The notes below the pieces were generated by a model. It had not been told where the DNA came from, made no database searches, and worked only from the letters and a program-made list of their open reading frames with translations. The position numbers and the translations under genes were made by a program. A DNA stretch of 47,753 nt. Origin: a virus. Below are positions 4,926 through 47,753 of this stretch, piece by piece; the first letter of the stretch is position 1, and each line of letters starts with the position of its first letter. The stretch is taken from positions 1 to 47,753 of IMG/VR virus record IMGVR_UViG_3300045999_008178; one strand, written 5' to 3'.

Positions 4926-4955
4926 AGGAAGTCAGACGGCTAAAGAGCCGGGGTA
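4926..4955 (-). promoter_or_regulatory. Leader hairpin, copy A
   Basis: Read on the minus strand the leader is ACCCCGGCT-CTTT-AGCCGTCTG followed by 7 nt and the ATG at 4925. CGGCT/AGCCG forms a 5-bp stem. Copy B before the 5625 start has the same stem and spacing but a different loop (TTCT). The stem occupies the place where a Shine-Dalgarno would sit. Confidence 0.6.
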
Positions 4956-4962
4956 GAGGAAA

Positions 4963-5012
4963 GAGGGACAATCCCTCATCAAAAGTACCCCTAGACGCAG
5001 TGCGCTTAGGGG
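4963..5012 (-). other. Two intergenic hairpins
   Basis: GAGGGA-TTG-TCCCTC (4963-4977), followed on the minus strand by TTTCCTC, resembles a weak intrinsic terminator. CCCCTA (4988-4993) pairs with TAGGGG (5007-5012). They lie between the 5044-5625 gene and the leader of the next operon and may separate two transcription units. Confidence 0.45.
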
Positions 5013-5031
5013 AAACTCTTGAGGAGGGGAT

Positions 5032-5061
5032 GCCAACCTAGCGCTAGCTTGCTAGGCTGGC
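5032..5061 (-). other. 11-bp hairpin across the stop codon of the 5044 gene
   Basis: On the minus strand GCCAGCCTAGC pairs with GCTAGGTTGGC (11 bp, one G-T wobble) with an 8-nt loop containing the TAG stop. No T-run follows, so it is not a standard terminator. It may protect the mRNA 3' end or affect termination of translation. Confidence 0.6.
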
Positions 5062-5625
5062 CTCTAAATCCTTAATCTGGATGATCTGGTATTCGTCGGA
5101 AAAGTCTTGAGCAGCGGCAGCGGCAGCGGCAGCGGCAGCGGCGAGTTCTCTCGTGAAGAACACATTAGAACCTTGATAATTAGGGTCTATTCCTCTTATG
5201 CCTTGCTTTACCTGCTCAGGATGGGTCCAATTATCGGACGCTCTAAAAATAATTGTAAACATTTTACCCATCGCTTCATCCTCTCTTGGAGTCGTCAGCC
5301 AGATGCCTAGGCCGTCTTTCCTAAACCTTTGCAGCCTGTTGGTGCAAGCCTTTACGCAATTCATAAAAGTTCTATACGTCTCCATTTCCCTTTGATACAC
5401 GCTTATAGCGTATGTGTTTATACGCCTCTTGTGTACTTTTGGATGGGGTACACTACTGAGTAGCGTTCTAATTAAACTATCTGGATCGGCGTCTTCTTCA
5501 ACACATACCTGCAACAACGGTGGTGCTTGTTGGTGCAGCATGGCCGCTTTCCATGCGGCAGCCGCATGTGCGATGTTTTCGGAGACGCATAGGCGCCTCA
5601 TTTGACTTTGAGTGAGTTTAGTCAT
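5044..5625 (-). CDS. Hypothetical protein with polyalanine tract
   Basis: 193 aa starting MTKLTQSQMRRLCVSEN. The body is helical with many basic residues (VHKRRINTYAISVY, NRLQRFRKDGLG). Near the C-terminus a run of about a dozen alanines separates it from a final acidic segment DFSDEYQIIQIKDLEA. This is the second Ala-tract protein in the operon, unrelated in its body to the 808-1410 product. The start follows leader hairpin copy B. Function unknown. Confidence 0.7.
   Translation of the reverse strand: MTKLTQSQMRRLCVSENIAHAAAAWKAAMLHQQAPPLLQVCVEEDADPDSLIRTLLSSVPHPKVHKRRINTYAISVYQREMETYRTFMNCVKACTNRLQRFRKDGLGIWLTTPREDEAMGKMFTIIFRASDNWTHPEQVKQGIRGIDPNYQGSNVFFTRELAAAAAAAAAAAQDFSDEYQIIQIKDLEASLAS
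5111..5143. repeat. GCAGCG hexanucleotide microsatellite
   Basis: Five tandem GCAGCG units plus a partial unit, coding the polyalanine run of the 5044-5625 gene. Length variation in steps of 6 nt would keep the reading frame. Confidence 0.85.
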
Positions 5626-5655
5626 GGTAAGGCAGACGGCTAGAAAGCCGGGGTG
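5626..5655 (-). promoter_or_regulatory. Leader hairpin, copy B
   Basis: Minus strand: ACCCCGGCT-TTCT-AGCCGTCTG, 7 nt, then ATG at 5625. The stem and the distance to ATG are identical to copy A, while only the loop and the last bases differ. A further small hairpin, CATC-TTAG-GATG, lies just upstream. Confidence 0.6.
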
Positions 5656-5690
5656 AATGGCATCCTAAGATGGTGCTCCCGTAGGAGCGA

Positions 5691-5789
5691 TACAACATAG
5701 GGGGATTTGAACCCCCATACGAAAGGCCCATCCTGTGAGAACAGGATGGGCGAATCGCGCCTTGCCTAGCTTGCGCTAGGTATGTTGTA
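5691..5789 (-). ncRNA. tRNA-like cloverleaf without an anticodon loop
   Basis: Minus strand: a 9-bp acceptor-like helix TACAACATA/TATGTTGTA (5781-5789 with 5691-5699); a D-position arm CCTAGC-GCAA-GCTAGG (5765-5780) capped by a GNRA loop rather than a D-loop; a 4-bp AAGG/CCTT stem (5760-5763 with 5723-5726) enclosing a 10-bp hairpin (5727-5736/5741-5750); and a perfect T-arm GGGGG-TTCAAAT-CCCCC (5700-5716) that abuts the acceptor helix with no gap, as in real tRNA. There is no 7-nt anticodon loop, no D-loop GG and no CCA. I read it as a tRNA mimic forming the 3' domain of the large RNA, not a decoding tRNA. Confidence 0.7.
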
Positions 5790-6335
5790 GAAAAATTGTT
5801 TTATGTTAATTGGCCCAGGACTACATAAAAGAGACCTGCTTACAGCCGTCGCATAACCCTGACGGTAGGGAACCCTTGCGGGATTGGGGCCCTGTAAGAG
5901 CACCCCTTATCTAAGCAGCAGGAGGCCCAACCCCCCTGAGAAGTATGTGTAGGGCCTGACAACCCCCGGTAACATACCGCATAACCTGCTTGCACTGTGA
6001 GCCCGATCTCTCTGCACGAGGATCCTGCTTGCTCACGATGGGATCTGGCTCTCACCGGCCTCCCCATCTAACGCACACTACTGCCCCCTCCGGTACTCCG
6101 GTGCTACTTGAAACCTCACCCCTGTTAGCCGACATGAAAGTCGGTAGGGATTATTGGCCCGTTCGCCGCGCTTGCTTAGGTCGATACCTAGCCGCCGGGA
6201 TTTGAATGTGCGCCACTACAGCCCATCAAAGGTCCGTAGCTCACAGCTATAACTCCTGTATTCACAGGCGAGCCGCGCTATACTGGCTGCGCTTTGGAAG
6301 GGGGATTACATAGGGTCGTCTGCGGTTGTGGAATT

Positions 6336-6364
6336 AACTTAGGCGGTTTTGGGCTGTCTGTCAA
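6336..6364 (-). promoter_or_regulatory. Second promoter-like site inside the RNA
   Basis: Minus strand TTGACA (6364-6359), 17-nt spacer, TAAGTT (6341-6336). The -35 is perfect and the -10 weak (3 of 6). It could start a shorter RNA at about 6328 that would lack the 5' domain. Confidence 0.3.
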
Positions 6365-6548
6365 CCCTTGGCGCAATCCCCAAGGGGATCACTAGCAAGA
6401 AAGAAAGAACGAACCACGACGGGTGCCGGTTCTCCTTGCTTGGATCCAACATACCCCCTAGGTCGGCAGGCTGTCAAGTGATCCCGCCAAAGGTTCCACA
6501 ACATCGGCGCAGTAAGATGAAACGCGCGCGTGCGCGGGAACCATCGTC

Positions 6549-6577
6549 AGTCTAGCACCAATCGGCCCCAGTGTCAA
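6549..6577 (-). promoter_or_regulatory. Sigma70-type promoter for the large RNA
   Basis: Minus strand TTGACA (6577-6572), spacer of exactly 17 nt, TAGACT (6554-6549; 4 of 6 to TATAAT). The predicted transcript would start near 6541, at the first base-paired element of the structured block. Confidence 0.55.
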
Positions 6578-6677: not shown

Positions 6678-7574
6678 TTACTCTTTCTCCGATAATTCAT
6701 TCATCTTAGCGAGCAGTTTAGACTTTCCCGACTTAAGTAACTGTGCGATTCTAGACTTACTTAAGTATATATCATCTGCAACTTCCTGCAAAGACTTACC
6801 ATGGATTACCATCTGTTCTATCACATAGTGTTCTCTGGAAGGTAAGCTTCGCAGCGCGGCCATGACCTGGCGATGCTCGCTGGAGGGGAGGGCTAACTGG
6901 GGGAAAAGGGAGGGAGAGGGGTCGTCCTCGGGGGGAGTGTCCGCCACCAGTAACTCGATGAGTTCGCTGCCACCTTCTACTGCTGGGCAAGAGAGGCTTC
7001 TGACTGTGGTGGTTGAGTAATCCTCCATGATTAGTTTAAGTCTCTCTACTGTCACCTTTGCGAACAGTGCTAAGTATTCAATAGAAGGTTTTACTCCAGT
7101 AGTTGCTTCTACTCGCATGCTTTCGCGCTGCACTTTACACAGTATTTCGTGGTAGTTTAGCGGTACGCGCACGGCACGTCCTTGATTGTGGAGTGCTCGC
7201 GTGATAGATTGTTTAATCCAGTTATAGCAGTAAGTCGATAGTCTGTAACCTCTAGATGGGTCGTATTTTTCTAACCCTCTTATTAAGCCCATGTTGCCTT
7301 CTTGTATAAGATCTGGAAATTCCAATCCTCGGCCCCGATATATTTTTGCAATGGTGATCACCATGCGCAAGTTCGATTCGACCATTATCTTCATAGAATG
7401 CTGCCCGCGCCGCTTTATTTTTGATATATATGATTCTGGTAAATCACTGTTATCGGCTTTAGCCGCCTGCCATAGTGCGATATTACGGCAATGGCGTATT
7501 TGAGCTTCTTCACTTAAGACTATGTGTCTACCCACATCTTGCATATAGCCTTGAAGTTCAGAGTTACTAGCCAT
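6678..7574 (-). CDS. RNA polymerase sigma factor, sigma70 family
   Basis: 298 aa. Region 1.2-like segment at the N-terminus (DVGRHIVLSEEAQIRHCRNI), region 2 with NLRMVITIAKIYRGRGLEF, DLIQEGNMGLIRGLEKYD and YCYNWIKQSITRAL (promoter -10 recognition), region 3, and region 4 with SREHYVIEQMVIHGKSLQEVADDI (-35 helix-turn-helix). It resembles cyanobacterial primary/group 2 sigma factors rather than phage late sigma factors, though it lacks the long N-terminal extension. Probably redirects host RNA polymerase to phage promoters. The start overlaps the upstream stop as TAATG. It is the last gene of the nuclease-kinase operon and lies next to the large RNA. Confidence 0.93.
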   Translation of the reverse strand: MASNSELQGYMQDVGRHIVLSEEAQIRHCRNIALWQAAKADNSDLPESYISKIKRRGQHSMKIMVESNLRMVITIAKIYRGRGLEFPDLIQEGNMGLIRGLEKYDPSRGYRLSTYCYNWIKQSITRALHNQGRAVRVPLNYHEILCKVQRESMRVEATTGVKPSIEYLALFAKVTVERLKLIMEDYSTTTVRSLSCPAVEGGSELIELLVADTPPEDDPSPSLFPQLALPSSEHRQVMAALRSLPSREHYVIEQMVIHGKSLQEVADDIYLSKSRIAQLLKSGKSKLLAKMNELSEKE

Positions 7575-10582: not shown

Positions 10583-10615
10583 GTAAAAAGGCCCACCCTT
10601 CCCGGAGTGAGCCTT
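10583..10615 (-). terminator. Intrinsic terminator oriented against the replication operon
   Basis: Minus strand AAGGCTCAC (10615-10607), 10-nt loop, GTGGGCCTT (10596-10588), then TTTTTAC. A 9-bp stem with one G-U pair and a U-tract. No minus-strand gene lies upstream of it, so it appears to stop antisense transcripts from entering the early region. It also makes the GTG at 10607 an unlikely start for the primase gene. Confidence 0.65.
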
Positions 10616-10660
10616 GATGATGATGACCACTGGGAACTAGCCCACTCACGATTTTACACC

Positions 10661-13369
10661 ATGACGGTTGATCCAATCGGTGCTTCAGCGCCGAAAGCTG
10701 TATCTGGCACACCTAAAGGTACTGCCCGTGAAATGTTTGATAAAAAAGTGTTTCCTGAGGATTGGGCACTAATCCCAGTTGCGGGGAAAGATACGTTCCA
10801 TAGAGGTTGGGCTAGTAAGAGAATAGAACATAAGGACATGTTATCGGCATTGGTGTCGGATTCTCGATACCGAGGTATTGGTGTAGTAACTGGTGCGCTA
10901 TCCGGCGGATTGATTGCTTTAGATATTGATGGGCACGAAGCGGATGCTAGGTACAAAGCGGTCTCGGGGGAGGAGTACCAGCCATTCGGGGGTGAAACCA
11001 CTATGGCGTGGACATCAGGTAAACCAGGCCGTAGGCAGTTGCTGTGGAGAGTGCCAGAGGCAATGATTTCCCAACTGAATCATGTTATATCATTGATCCT
11101 ACTGGATGATGGCGTGTGGTGGAGCGGTAAAGGTCGTCCTAATGAAGACGACACTATGAATCGTGCTCCTAAAGAAGAGTTGGTGCTGAGATTCAATAAG
11201 TGCATGTCAGTGTTGCCCGGTAGCCCTCATCCCGATACTAAGAAGCGATTTAGGTTTCTGCAATACAATAATGGTGTGCCAGAGGATGCTCCTACATGGG
11301 TGTTAGAAATACTGAAAGAGCGGGTTAAGCCTAGTGAATGGTTAGCTGAAGACGATATTCGTGAACTGCAATCGGAAGTAGGTCGCACTCAAGTACCTCC
11401 GAGGCAATTAAGAGGTTGGTTCTTTAAGGAGGAAGTTCAGAAAAAGTTACAGCCTAGGTTGACTGAACTAGTGTTTAGACATTCAGTATTTGACCAGTAT
11501 GGTTGGGAGACAAGAGGAGGTAGTAAACCGCAGTTGATGAATGGTTGTCCTTGGCACGACAGCAGTAGTGGCACGTCGTTTCAAGTTAATGAAGAGAACG
11601 GCTGTTGGGATTGTAAGAGCTGTAAGGTATATGGAGATCCTTTGGACTTTATTCATAAGATAGAGACTAATGATATGTACGCACCGCGTCCTGTCGGTTC
11701 TGAATTGGAGCGATACATAAAACCTATTGCAGAGGCACTTGGATACAGATACCCAGAAGATTTGCTGGTAGTGCAGAAGACTACTGATGTACCTAGAGAA
11801 GTTATATCAGGGATAGAACTATTGGTTAGGGCTGAGAAAATCATTAAAGAGGTGAGGGATCCTTCAGAGCAGTTTATCGCTTTAACCGATTTGGCGGAGA
11901 ATACGGGGCGAATGCGCTTAACTCCTACAAAATTAAAGGAGTTGGTTACTCGGCATAAGCAATTTACTAAGAATGCAGAGATAGGTTTGTTAAGGGATAA
12001 AGACTGGAGAAAGGACGTTGCGCCAGAAGAACACATTATACCGGGTTTGATCCGGCGCCCGTCACAGATACTTCTACATGCTCGGGGCGGTGTTGGGAAG
12101 ACTGAAACTGCTATAGCTCTAGCCAAAGCTATTGGTACTGGAGCGTGTATTAAGATTAGAGGGATCGACGTACAGTGTCGGCAGGGTAATGTTTTGTGGA
12201 TCTCTAGTGACCAGAATAAGTCTCGGCTAGATGCTCAGCTAAGCGCCCAAGACATTACAGAGGCTAATTCAGACTGGTTCCACTTTGTAGAAAACTGGAA
12301 AACTGACCTTCCGCGTGAATTAGCGGATATTATCAGAAAGGTAGAGCCGGTCATTGTTGTCATTGACTCTCTCGCTTCATCGCAAGATGAAACGGGGGTT
12401 AAAGAGAATGAAGCTGAGTACGCAGCTCCTTTGTACGCCTTGTCTGTTAATAACGGTGATATGAGTTCTGAGTTTGGGTTCCCCGCTTGTTCTCTGTTAT
12501 GGATTCACCATAACACCAAAGATGGGACGAAGTTTAGAGGAACAGACCGTATTAACAATGCGGTCGATGAGACATGGGAGTTACAGAATTTATCTGTTGA
12601 GCAAGAAGTTACTTTTGGTGTTAACTCCAGATTCTTATGTATCGGTAAATCTCGCTTTGATCGTAGTGGGGATCGAATGCTGATAAAAAGAGATGTAGAA
12701 CTTAATTACAGCATTGAGGATCTCACTCCCCTACTTGAGCGGGAGGGGGTGATGCGGAGCGGAGACATCAGCCCCAGGAGCCTTGTGCTGGCCGCTGTGA
12801 CGGACTCGGGGGAAGAGGGGGCCACTCCCAAGGCCATCCGGGAATTTGTGCTCCACCGGATGGAGGGGGCCGGCCAGGAGGTGTTCCCGTCCCGCCAGGC
12901 CATCGGGAAGCACCTGGCGGCCTGGGAGAAGGCCGGGATGGTGGAGAAGGTCGGGATGGTCGCGGTGGAGGGGAGAGGGAGGCCCACTCTCCTCTTCAGA
13001 GTGCCTCGCGGGGAGAGATCGAAAGAGGGGGGTGCGAAATTCGATGTAGATGACCAAAACACTTGGTGTGCGGGGTTTTTGGAATTTGCAACTATTTTGC
13101 AACCAAGGGGGTTAAAGGGGGGTGTGGTTGCAAAATCAGGGCTTCCCCCCGAGGCCGAAGAGGGTGACCTGGAAGGAAGCCCTGATTTTGCAACCGGAGG
13201 GGCTGCAGAAGGCGAAATAGAGGAGGTGGTTGCAAAATCAAACCCTGTCCCCGAGGGCGATTTGCCCCTGTCAGGGACTTTGCAACCACCTCCTTCGGCC
13301 CACCCCCGCGAGGGCCTATCTGATTGGTTGGATGCGTTTGGTGGTCAGGTGACTGGTTCGGAGCCTTAG
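10661..13369 (+). CDS. Bifunctional primase-polymerase / RecA-fold helicase
   Basis: About 902 aa from ATG 10661; a GTG at 10607 sits in a terminator stem. The N-terminal prim-pol part has the motif GVVTGALSGGLIALDIDGHE (metal-binding D-x-D). A cysteine pair in WDCKSCKVYGDPLDF looks like a zinc site. The helicase part starts near residue 460 with Walker A HARGGVGKTETAIALAKAIG, then VIVVIDSLASS (Walker B) and SLLWIHHNTKDGTKFRG, as in RepA/KaiC-type replicative helicases. The C-terminus carries a winged-helix-like segment (IREFVLHRMEGAGQEVFPSRQAIGKHL) in much more GC-rich DNA, then a low-complexity tail holding the inverted-repeat cluster. Probably primes and unwinds at the phage origin. Confidence 0.85.
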   Translation: MTVDPIGASAPKAVSGTPKGTAREMFDKKVFPEDWALIPVAGKDTFHRGWASKRIEHKDMLSALVSDSRYRGIGVVTGALSGGLIALDIDGHEADARYKAVSGEEYQPFGGETTMAWTSGKPGRRQLLWRVPEAMISQLNHVISLILLDDGVWWSGKGRPNEDDTMNRAPKEELVLRFNKCMSVLPGSPHPDTKKRFRFLQYNNGVPEDAPTWVLEILKERVKPSEWLAEDDIRELQSEVGRTQVPPRQLRGWFFKEEVQKKLQPRLTELVFRHSVFDQYGWETRGGSKPQLMNGCPWHDSSSGTSFQVNEENGCWDCKSCKVYGDPLDFIHKIETNDMYAPRPVGSELERYIKPIAEALGYRYPEDLLVVQKTTDVPREVISGIELLVRAEKIIKEVRDPSEQFIALTDLAENTGRMRLTPTKLKELVTRHKQFTKNAEIGLLRDKDWRKDVAPEEHIIPGLIRRPSQILLHARGGVGKTETAIALAKAIGTGACIKIRGIDVQCRQGNVLWISSDQNKSRLDAQLSAQDITEANSDWFHFVENWKTDLPRELADIIRKVEPVIVVIDSLASSQDETGVKENEAEYAAPLYALSVNNGDMSSEFGFPACSLLWIHHNTKDGTKFRGTDRINNAVDETWELQNLSVEQEVTFGVNSRFLCIGKSRFDRSGDRMLIKRDVELNYSIEDLTPLLEREGVMRSGDISPRSLVLAAVTDSGEEGATPKAIREFVLHRMEGAGQEVFPSRQAIGKHLAAWEKAGMVEKVGMVAVEGRGRPTLLFRVPRGERSKEGGAKFDVDDQNTWCAGFLEFATILQPRGLKGGVVAKSGLPPEAEEGDLEGSPDFATGGAAEGEIEEVVAKSNPVPEGDLPLSGTLQPPPSAHPREGLSDWLDAFGGQVTGSEP
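13085..13293. repeat. Cluster of TTGCAA-centred inverted repeats
   Basis: Six copies of TTTTGCAACC or its complement in about 210 bp: 13085, 13094, 13126, 13186, 13227 and 13279. They form nested inverted repeats: a perfect 21-bp pair (13126-13146 with 13175-13195, 28-bp spacer), a perfect 15-bp pair (13222-13236 with 13279-13293) with an inner CCCTG/CAGGG stem, and an 11-bp pair (13094-13104 with 13126-13136). The spacers of the first two each contain CCCCGAG. They lie inside the primase C-terminal coding region, just before the 13410 gene. Confidence 0.85.
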
Positions 13370-44056: not shown

Positions 44057-45106
44057 CTAGTAGCTTTTTAATAAAGCGGTCTCTAAACTTCTGTAATAAC
44101 CTCTTACAACTTTGTCTACGTGATCGGTTTCATAAGTACGCAGCGCGTTTTCTATAGGATCCCACTGAGGAGCCCACCGGCTTTCAAATGTCTCTATTGC
44201 GTATTCTGATAAACCTACGCGGCGTGGTACTTGAGTAAGCTCGTTGATGAAATCGCGGGCGCTAGTTCGATTTTCTGTAGCGAACTCAGCTAGGCCGAAG
44301 TCGATGAATTTAAGGCTTCTGGTTTTTGGGTTAAACATTATGTTTTTTAAGTGCCCATCGTTGTGTACGAGACCACTCATGTGTAAAGAGCGATAGAGGT
44401 CTAACATTTGGCGTTTTAACTGTAGTGGTGCGGTGTATTTAAGCGAGAAAATACTAGAACTTACCCCATGCGTAGATAAAGGGGAATAATTGTTCAAGTG
44501 CTCCATGACCAATACCCGGTCAGTAGCTTTGTATAGCTGAGGGGATGGCACATTATTGATGTTAGCGTGCCTTAGTATCTCCCCTTCAGGGAGTAAGCTT
44601 TCTGTGGGGCCGCTCAGGAATTTATTAGGCGTCCCCCCGAGGTCGTTGTTCTTTAAGTATTTTATACCGTATTTATTAGACGGGTGGACAACATAATTAC
44701 CGTAAGCACCTTGGCCCCCTAGACATCGTGGAGTCGGAACAAAGTCATCTTCCCTAATCCAGTGATCAATCTTGGATGCTGCACATGCAATTGCGTTGGC
44801 TTTCTTGTTATCTTCAAAGACATCCCACTGTTTGCCGCGCTTCCGCGCCTCAGCTTCGATCCGATCCCAGTCCTCACCAGGGGCCGTGAAGCCCTGCCAA
44901 TTGGGGTCACGGCGAGCGAAACGGCGTGCGGCGGAGACGCCTAGGACTGTAATCCCAGCCCCGAGGGCGACTTTGCCGATCAGGCTCGGGGTGATTGTTG
45001 GATTAGAACTGGATGCAGTGGTCTTTTTGGAGCATTTCTTGTTGTCTGGTATGCCTGACGCACCGCATTTCTTGTCGAATCTTAGTGAAGCGGTGGTTAT
45101 GGGCAT
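44057..45106 (-). CDS. Membrane-anchored protein kinase with DKKCG tag
   Basis: 349 aa. Residues 8-27 carry the tag LRFDKKCGASGI...KKCSK shared with two other proteins here. A membrane helix (about 42-60, LIGKVALGAGITVLGVSAA) follows, then a kinase fold from about residue 125: GGQGAYGNYVV glycine loop, K149 in GIKYLK, Glu near 175 (EGEILRH), hinge VMEHL (200-204), VHNDGHLKNIMF with catalytic D250 and N255, and DFG (269-271). All key residues are present, so it should be active; the HND loop resembles RIO/APH-type kinases. It lies between the protease gene and other head-region genes. Targets unknown. Confidence 0.85.
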   Translation of the reverse strand: MPITTASLRFDKKCGASGIPDNKKCSKKTTASSSNPTITPSLIGKVALGAGITVLGVSAARRFARRDPNWQGFTAPGEDWDRIEAEARKRGKQWDVFEDNKKANAIACAASKIDHWIREDDFVPTPRCLGGQGAYGNYVVHPSNKYGIKYLKNNDLGGTPNKFLSGPTESLLPEGEILRHANINNVPSPQLYKATDRVLVMEHLNNYSPLSTHGVSSSIFSLKYTAPLQLKRQMLDLYRSLHMSGLVHNDGHLKNIMFNPKTRSLKFIDFGLAEFATENRTSARDFINELTQVPRRVGLSEYAIETFESRWAPQWDPIENALRTYETDHVDKVVRGYYRSLETALLKSY

Positions 45107-46489: not shown

Positions 46490-47044
46490 TCAGTTACCAC
46501 TAAAGAGCCTGCGCTTCTGCCTAATCAGCCCGATTTGGGTTTTACGCGCAGCGCGTCGTGTTGAAGCAACCCCAGCTTGGGCTTTAGCCATTGCGGGAGC
46601 TACTGCAGCTTTTGTCGCCTTCCGTGCCCTTGCTCTAGATAAAGGTACAGGGCCTTGAGACAACATCCCCCGAGCTTGTTTGTTATTCATAGACCGTGCC
46701 ATACTGGCTTGTGAGTTGCTAACTTGATTTGTCCATGGGTCTGGAATGCCACCAGCGGAATTGGTAGGACGAGGATTTGACATGCGGCTAGTCGCACGTA
46801 AGTTCTTCGCAACTCTTAGGTTAGACATAGCATTTTTCTGCATTCCTCGATATTTCATAGCACCCACTGTACCTGCAGCAATACCACCAGCAACGGCGGC
46901 TACTTTAAGGCCGGTCTGGACGTTTTCATTACCCAGGGCGGATTTGACAGTACCGACTAAGCCTTTATTGCACTTCTTGCTCTCAGCGATCCCGGAGGCA
47001 CCGCACTTTTTGTCAAAGCGAAGGGTAGATGGTGTGAGTGTCAT
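46490..47044 (-). CDS. DKKCG-tagged membrane-segment protein, paralog 1
   Basis: 184 aa from ATG 47044, fixed by AAGGAGG 8 nt upstream, the best ribosome-binding site seen in the window; a longer frame to 47116 is rejected. Tag LRFDKKCGASGIAESKKCNK at residues 8-27, then GTVKSALGNENVQTGLK and a membrane-like helix VAAVAGGIAAGTVGAM, matching the third family member over this stretch almost perfectly. The rest is basic and low-complexity (AKTTKAAVAP-type, RARARKATKAAV, ending QKRRLFSGN). Function unknown. Confidence 0.75.
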   Translation of the reverse strand: MTLTPSTLRFDKKCGASGIAESKKCNKGLVGTVKSALGNENVQTGLKVAAVAGGIAAGTVGAMKYRGMQKNAMSNLRVAKNLRATSRMSNPRPTNSAGGIPDPWTNQVSNSQASMARSMNNKQARGMLSQGPVPLSRARARKATKAAVAPAMAKAQAGVASTRRAARKTQIGLIRQKRRLFSGN

Positions 47045-47045
47045 T

Positions 47046-47753
47046 TCAATTGCCTCCTTTATTGGCTCTTCGGCGGCGAGCGGCGGAAATCGGGGCTTCT
47101 TTTTTGAGGTCACCAAGGTATTCCCGAAGGTTATTTCTATACCCTTTAGCCTCTATTTGTGCTGTTTTCACATTTAGTGCTGAACCTGTGCTCCAGTATG
47201 TAGAGTTTGCTTTCTTTGTTGCTCCCAGCTTTGCGCTGATTTTGCCACGAGTCGCCTTAAACTTACCTACCGTGCGACCAATGTCTTTTACTTTTTGCCT
47301 CATTCCTCGGTATTTCATAGCGCCTACTGTACCTGCGGCGATGCCGCCAGCAACGGCGGCTACTTTAAGACCGGTCTGAACATTTTCATTGCCAAGGGCA
47401 GATTTAACAGTACCTAGAACTCCTTTATTACACTTCTTGCCTTCAGCGATGCCTGAGCGTCCACACTTCTTATCCTCCCGCACACTCAACACACCACGAA
47501 TATAACCCCTACTACGTTTGTGGATCCCAAGTTCACAAGCATCGAGATATTCCATAGGAGTAAGTACAGCGTCCATTGCTGCTTTAGCTGCGCAGCCACA
47601 AGAGCCACTCTTCTTACCCTTCTTCGTGCAAGCGGCACAGGGCTTCTTACCTTTCCCGTGGGGGGCGTCGCCGTACTCGGGGGACTCTCCCTTCTCCATC
47701 TTCGTAGACTCCATTCCTTCCTCCGCAGCACCACCTTTGGCGGGCTTTTTACG
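47046..47753 (-). CDS. DKKCG-tagged protein, paralog 2, cut by window edge
   Basis: Frame stays open through the right edge, so the gene may be longer; an ATG at 47714 would give 222 aa. The first part is Lys/Gly/Cys-rich (KGKKPCAACTKKGKKSGSCGC), then LTPMEYLDACELGIHKRSRGYIRGVL. The tag EDKKCGRSGIAEGKKCNKG is internal here, followed by the same GTVKSALGNENVQTGLK and membrane-like helix as its neighbour. Ends basic (ARRRRANKG). It could be a capsid internal protein or the tail of a portal-region gene. Confidence 0.7.
   Translation of the reverse strand, partial: RKKPAKGGAAEEGMESTKMEKGESPEYGDAPHGKGKKPCAACTKKGKKSGSCGCAAKAAMDAVLTPMEYLDACELGIHKRSRGYIRGVLSVREDKKCGRSGIAEGKKCNKGVLGTVKSALGNENVQTGLKVAAVAGGIAAGTVGAMKYRGMRQKVKDIGRTVGKFKATRGKISAKLGATKKANSTYWSTGSALNVKTAQIEAKGYRNNLREYLGDLKKEAPISAARRRRANKGGN

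Follow-up and report, generated by a model that had tools for sequence, protein, structure and literature searches.

Introduction

To our knowledge, no function is known for the giant RNAs of phages such as GOLLD and ROOL, which are large and elaborately structured. Both are encoded in phages near tRNA islands, and both form nanocages (PMC12286853). GOLLD is a giant RNA of phages and prophages that exceeds 800 nt in many of its members and possesses one conserved and one variable end; in some cases, real tRNAs are located within its linker (PMC12286853). ROOL has a length of about 580-660 nt and reportedly was as abundant as the 16S rRNA in one strain (PMC12286853). A tRNA-like fold at the 3' side of a long non-coding RNA is known from the RNase P-processed pairs MALAT1/mascRNA and MEN-beta/menRNA (PMC11693755).

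A preliminary description of the viral record IMGVR_UViG_3300045999_008178, which was analyzed here at its full length of 47,753 nucleotides (hereafter the window), had proposed a GOLLD/ROOL-like RNA of about 870 nt. In the following, the locus is compared with its relatives in phages and host chromosomes and with the described RNAs.

The window carries a structured RNA gene on the minus strand

The virus represented by the window is a phage of freshwater picocyanobacteria and harbors a folded RNA gene that does not encode a protein and is read from the minus strand (Table 1). We regard the existence of a structured RNA gene on this strand as practically certain. The earlier view of the block of about 870 nt as a large structured non-coding cyanophage RNA was borne out, as covariation is present and a conserved reading frame through the block, which was specifically looked for, is absent. 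Also its designation as gene-free is effectively correct: the only ATG-initiated open reading frame of at least 60 aa inside comprises 75 aa (5840-6067, minus strand), and as this frame is lost by a 1-nt deletion in the 88%-identical homologue G006, coding was ruled out.

On the minus strand, positions 5675-6330 folded better than 60 out of 60 dinucleotide shuffles (z = -3.5); the corresponding value for the plus strand was z = -3.1. Folding energy thus does not select a strand, and it is the promoters, the covariation and the terminators of the host copies by which the strand is settled. The remaining part, 6331-6577, folded at chance level (z = -0.9, 11 of 60 shuffles equally good). These 5' ~250 nt contain three TTGACA sites, so that some of the strong helices presumed earlier are inter-promoter hairpins. 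The 9-bp long-range pairing was found as described (TACAACATA, 5789-5781, with TATGTTGTA, 5699-5691), and so were a GNRA cap (GCAA in CCTAGC-GCAA-GCTAGG, 5780-5765) and a UNCG cap (UACG in GCTCC-UACG-GGAGC, 5688-5675). Support was lacking for TTGTGGAA/TTCCACAA, a long-range pairing predicted by the MFE model, as it is broken in both close relatives, L002 (C-A mismatch) and L003 (G-G), two near-identical phages that were found via the neighboring sigma-factor gene.

Table 1. Positions of the RNA gene, its parts and neighboring features in the window
Feature	Position	Strand	Remarks
Promoter P1, TTGACA-17-TAGACT	6549..6577	-	extended -10, TGC before it; aligns with first promoter of 21 related loci
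Promoter P2, TTGACA-18-TATGTT	6448..6477	-	100 nt downstream of P1; spacing similar in relatives
Promoter P3, TTGACA-17-TAAGTT	6336..6364	-	last of array; 113 nt downstream of P2
RNA body, exchangeable cassette	about 5790..6330	-	compensatory changes at 15 pairs (4 sequences)
3' tRNA-like cloverleaf	5691..5789	-	covariation; match to model R1
Acceptor	5781-5789/5691-5699	-	9 bp
D-like arm	5765-5780	-	GCAA loop
Long second arm	5719-5758	-	part of cloverleaf
T arm	5700-5716	-	GGGGG-UUCAAAU-CCCCC
3' hairpin, GCTCC-UACG-GGAGC	5675..5688	-	aligns with U-tract intrinsic terminator of host copies; U-tract absent here
Hairpin 2, conserved downstream double hairpin around GCGCACTGCGTC	4974..5024	-	outer stem changes as pairs
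Sigma-70-type factor gene	6678..7574	-	neighbor, upstream of RNA gene; PHROG 351, 4.1e-51
PrimPol + AAA_25 helicase protein gene	10607..13369	+	linked gene; common to phages and RNA-carrying host elements

A tandem promoter array precedes the RNA in related phages

With the PrimPol-helicase gene as query, 70 loci were obtained at about 40-99% identity. About 45 of these showed the region downstream of the sigma-factor gene, which is thus positioned upstream of the RNA region, as a mosaic block with shared modules. In most relatives, hairpin 2 directly follows the RNA at its 3' side; in the window, it is located one gene further on. Its paired changes are CCAGAAG/CTTTTGG versus TCAAGAG/CTTTTGA.

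Several features of the neighboring genes were recorded in addition. The motif CCCCGGCTNTNTAGCCGTCTG, with 0.04 matches expected by chance, precedes two successive genes (5633-5653 and 4933-4953, minus strand) and is possibly a leader hairpin. The open reading frame following the RNA (5044-5625, minus strand) contains a GCN repeat near 5107-5143 that specifies a poly-alanine run; this run is shorter in L003. Three further frames on the minus strand (44057-45106, 46490-47116 and 47046-47714) have the motif KKCGxSGIxxxKKC in common, and the first of these is also kinase-like (Pfam Pkinase/ABC1).

Judged from its sequence, the 5' part of the block (~250 nt, 6577-6336) appears to be chiefly a tandem promoter array, a feature that had been overlooked before. 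The promoter TTGACA-17-TAGACT reported for the 5' edge is indeed present (6577-6549, minus strand), and this P1 is the first of three TTGACA sites, at 6577, 6477 and 6364. Among 40 related regions, TTGAC[AG] occurred 125 times on the RNA strand versus 29 times on the other strand, with 27 expected per strand, and the sites typically formed triplets ~92-100 and 113-125 nt apart. The 61 aligned copies have TTGAC, a 17-nt spacer and an extended -10 in common (consensus TTGAC[AG]-N17-TGC-mATACT), and two or three TTGAC[AG]-N17-TGC-extended-(-10) units at fixed spacing are found in almost all related phages. P3 is conserved in L003 and is followed there by an unrelated body. From the three promoter sites, transcripts of ~870, 770 and 655 nt are predicted, with putative starts near 6541, 6441 and, for the shortest, about 6329.

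The RNA ends in a tRNA-like fold

The 3' tail very likely adopts a tRNA-like fold, which had escaped the preliminary description and links the phage RNA to RNAs of picocyanobacterial chromosomes. It includes a 9-bp acceptor and a 5-bp T arm with a 7-nt UUCRANN loop (UUCAAAU/UUCAAGU). The 3' parts of the window and of four related loci (L047, L016, L037, L061) align as a cloverleaf with different arms. For the covariation analysis, loops were trimmed to a common length and the arms were set by hand, because the acceptor stem was misaligned when MAFFT was applied to untrimmed tails. In this alignment, 96.5% of the cells of 34 pairs were paired and 20 of the 34 pairs were changed on both sides; changes on both sides were observed for all nine acceptor pairs. 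The covariation score amounted to 0.524 as compared to 0.161±0.022 in shuffled and at most 0.093 in slid alignments.

The pattern of invariant joints (CAAGGCGC ... GTATGGNGGTTCRARTC) occurred in two further phages, in Synechococcus sp. BO 8801 (two copies) and in two Cyanobium. Model R1, the loops of which are shortened by the trimming and two rows of which are minus one joining nucleotide, matched positions 5675-5789 with 90.6 bits (E 8.7e-18), the window being among the model's own sequences. Tails were also identified in sequences outside the model, in G006 (61.8 bits) and in L068 (65.6 bits, with a T-arm insertion) as well as in additional host-family genomes (G098 twice, G171, G070 and G165, 41-50 bits). 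A search over 386 genomes of the phylum with the stricter filters for large sets yielded no tails beyond those already found, and none was detected in the first 50 kb of S-CBS4 or in S-LBS1. Weak matches at the expected tail position in L012, L035 and L040 (17-20 bits) were left out of the counts.

Host matches of at most about 34 bits were discarded, as they were mostly ordinary tRNA-Leu or tRNA-Gly. One host locus (L103 in G045, 31 bits) has retained just the tail's 3' part and the terminator beside unrelated sequence, by eye apparently a 5'-truncated copy. Insertions between the T-stem strands occur in L092/L122 (23 nt) and L068 (about 60 nt), hence the T arm tolerates an extra hairpin.

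Many related phages lack the tRNA-like tail and end in another conserved fold instead, indicating that the tail is not indispensable. Eight phages of this group (L012, L042, L055, L066, L070, L072, L073, L076) have a 3' hairpin shortly before hairpin 2. Its loop reads GCGTGC, GCGTGT or GTGTGT and can pair with GCACGC, ACACGC or ACACAC exactly 26 nt downstream, potentially forming a covarying pseudoknot.

The tail does not represent a working tRNA, since the acceptor has 9 bp, an encoded CCA is lacking and tetraloops close the D- and anticodon-like arms in place of a D loop and a 7-nt anticodon loop; for the same reasons, recognition by RNase P or RNase Z is only plausible. The invariant CAAGGC joint could be the source of a GG that docks into a T loop. 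The canonical T arm, together with a tRNA-Ser that ARAGORN calls in one relative (L078), would also be in line with one or more degenerate tRNA genes or with the remaining attachment site of an element that had integrated into a tRNA gene. We consider this origin extremely improbable: ARAGORN identified neither tRNA nor tmRNA in the window or in 34 other related loci, the Rfam tRNA model was silent at E≤10, there is no anticodon loop, and the pairs covary throughout, which is the opposite of decay, since compensatory pairs would be lost from a decaying gene.

Related RNAs occur in integrated elements of picocyanobacteria

The same tail ends RNAs of ~800-880 nt in integrated elements of Synechococcus and Cyanobium. 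Each of these host copies has a single TTGAC-N17 promoter, the RNA with its tail and, subsequently, a GC hairpin with a T-rich stretch, i.e., a U-tract terminator. The consensus of nine host RNAs comprised 215 pairs, of which 52 were changed on both sides. Paired cells made up 97.2% versus 91.2±0.4% in shuffles, and the covariation score was 0.211 versus 0.108±0.006 in shuffled and at most 0.045 in slid alignments; these values are biased in favor of the structure, as it was derived from the same nine-RNA alignment on which it was tested. A profile of the host bodies matched the phage loci in the tail only.

The host elements possess the same PrimPol-helicase (41-47% identity in four), and the one examined most fully, G070, additionally carries integrase-like, ArdC and DUF932 genes. 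As the PrimPol-helicase is common to phages and integrated elements and its gene is divergent to and adjoins that of the RNA in G070 and G165, the RNA might control replication of a PrimPol-helicase replicon as a primer, origin transcript or copy control RNA. Such a role appears quite improbable, however: in the window, 4 kb and other genes separate the RNA gene from that of PrimPol, no clear pole of the cumulative GC skew coincides with the RNA, and a tRNA-like 3' end would be unexpected for a primer.

The RNA body behaves as an exchangeable cassette

In L003, the flanks are 96-98% identical to those of the window, while the middle 480 nt are replaced by 580 unrelated nt. Over most of 21 kb, the window and G005 display 96-98% identity, and the body (5790-6271) is among the few replaced stretches, an unrelated 580 nt being found in its place. 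Alignment of the alternative bodies of the window and L003 scored no better than shuffles (370 versus 347±24). The body of G006 displays 88% nucleotide identity to that of the window over 5714-6256, with genes at 65-73% in DNA, and L012 and L118 reach about 65-67% identity to the window in the 5' half of the body. Comparison of the window with L012 and L118 revealed hairpin stems that change together (CCTGT/ACAGG, CCAGG/CCTGG and CCGGG/CCCGG; CCGAC/GTCGG and TCGGC/GCCGA). The covariation check suggested earlier gave values above shuffled and slid controls for the tail and the host RNAs, and weaker support for the window body, the alignment of which contains only four distinct sequences.

The simplest reading of these sequences is that bodies have been exchanged by recombination between the conserved promoters and tail, and neutral recombination across the conserved flanks would be compatible with it as well. 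Exchange of a cassette with its flanks kept would also be in line with an RNA acting in anti-defense or superinfection immunity, in which the early expressed body inhibits a variable host system or serves as its decoy. In phages, the RNA gene is located among early replication genes, and in host elements genes for ArdC anti-restriction and DUF932 proteins follow downstream of the RNA, as do SSB-like frames identified by eye. As this is guilt by association only, and neither a defense partner nor a link to a tRNA nuclease was found, we consider an anti-defense role unlikely.

The RNA does not match described families

The proposed membership in GOLLD, ROOL, OLE or HEARO is unsupported. The window has no Rfam match at gathering score among 4227 families and no meaningful one at E≤10, OLE and HEARO being absent from both scans, and an Rfam scan of nine related loci was silent. 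At E≤10, the GOLLD model RF02032 gave 0 matches in the window and eight relatives, with a control that was weak in five genomes and never exceeded the cut-off; the ROOL model RF03087 gave 0 matches in the same set with a control that was silent everywhere, making this the weaker negative. A tRNA island as known for GOLLD is missing, with no tRNA in the window or the 34 related loci. DNA searches of isolated phages and plasmids gave no match, and no earlier description of the RNA was found in the open-access literature searched.

The label GOLLD/ROOL-like therefore applies insofar as the RNA resembles the giant phage RNAs in kind, but not as family membership, as neither model matched at E≤10 in nine records. 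The preliminary description had held that covariation in the absence of a family match would make the RNA a new class, and this is the situation observed. The findings point to an undescribed class of giant phage RNA, with the GOLLD and ROOL negatives obtained without a working positive control.

A relative in kind could nevertheless act similarly, as an RNA-only assembly, i.e., a cage-like homo-oligomer made in quantity during infection. The size, the ornate fold and the phage location are in favor of this, GOLLD likewise combines a conserved with a variable end and, like ROOL, forms nanocages (PMC12286853), and the tandem promoters suggest high output. We regard such an assembly as possible, though rather doubtful, as neither the GOLLD model nor the ROOL model (the latter without positive control) matched, there is no tRNA array near the gene, and replacement of the whole body is hard to square with one conserved cage.

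Discussion

The best explanation, to which we assign a probability of roughly 60%, is that picocyanobacterial phages and related integrated elements carry a non-coding RNA gene composed of a promoter array, a body and a tRNA-like tail. It builds on the promoters, the covarying cloverleaf, the host homologues with their terminator, the body exchange and the lack of a conserved frame. Tandem strong sigma-70-type promoters (6577-6336) would drive the gene, and the product would be a structured body (about 6330-5790) that ends in the cloverleaf (5789-5691) and a short hairpin.

Based on this arrangement, the product is most likely an abundant structural RNA, made from the promoter array, whose 3' end may be defined or protected by the tRNA-like tail. 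In this step, to which we give about even odds, the tail would most likely serve as a substrate of RNase P or RNase Z; we infer it because the phage copies lack a U-tract terminator, which the host copies have. The body, in turn, could be a specificity-bearing scaffold or decoy for a partner from host or phage, a suggestion that may equally well be right or wrong and that would account for the replacement of entire bodies between retained promoters and tail. Taken further, and only tentatively, the RNA could belong to a class of giant phage RNAs in which a 3' end made by the tRNA machinery, as a bacterial counterpart of MALAT1/mascRNA, is combined with a swappable specificity body in conflicts between phages, elements and hosts.

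GOLLD and ROOL would thereby be joined by a further class of giant phage RNA, with features not known in these two: a conserved promoter array, a tRNA-like 3' end, homologues in picocyanobacterial chromosomes, and natural exchange of the body among near-identical phages. Owing to these swaps and to the host copies, the function is testable by comparison of strains.

With GOLLD, the RNA has in common the giant size, the phage location, and one conserved and one variable end; it differs in that its conserved 3' end is a tRNA-like fold and its variable part is swapped wholesale. ROOL is likewise a phage-borne ornate RNA, with a size near that of body plus tail, whereas the window RNA has neither a tRNA island nor a match to the ROOL model, the control of which was silent. 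The tRNA-like domain of tmRNA comprises an acceptor, a T arm and a long arm replacing the anticodon arm. In contrast to tmRNA, the window RNA has no tag frame, its cloverleaf is complete at the 3' end, and neither ARAGORN nor Rfam detected it. RNAs of the MALAT1 type, which are likewise long and bear a tRNA-like fold at the 3' side, provide the closest analogy; as MALAT1/mascRNA and MEN-beta/menRNA are mammalian, the resemblance is one of analogy only and implies no kinship with the window RNA.
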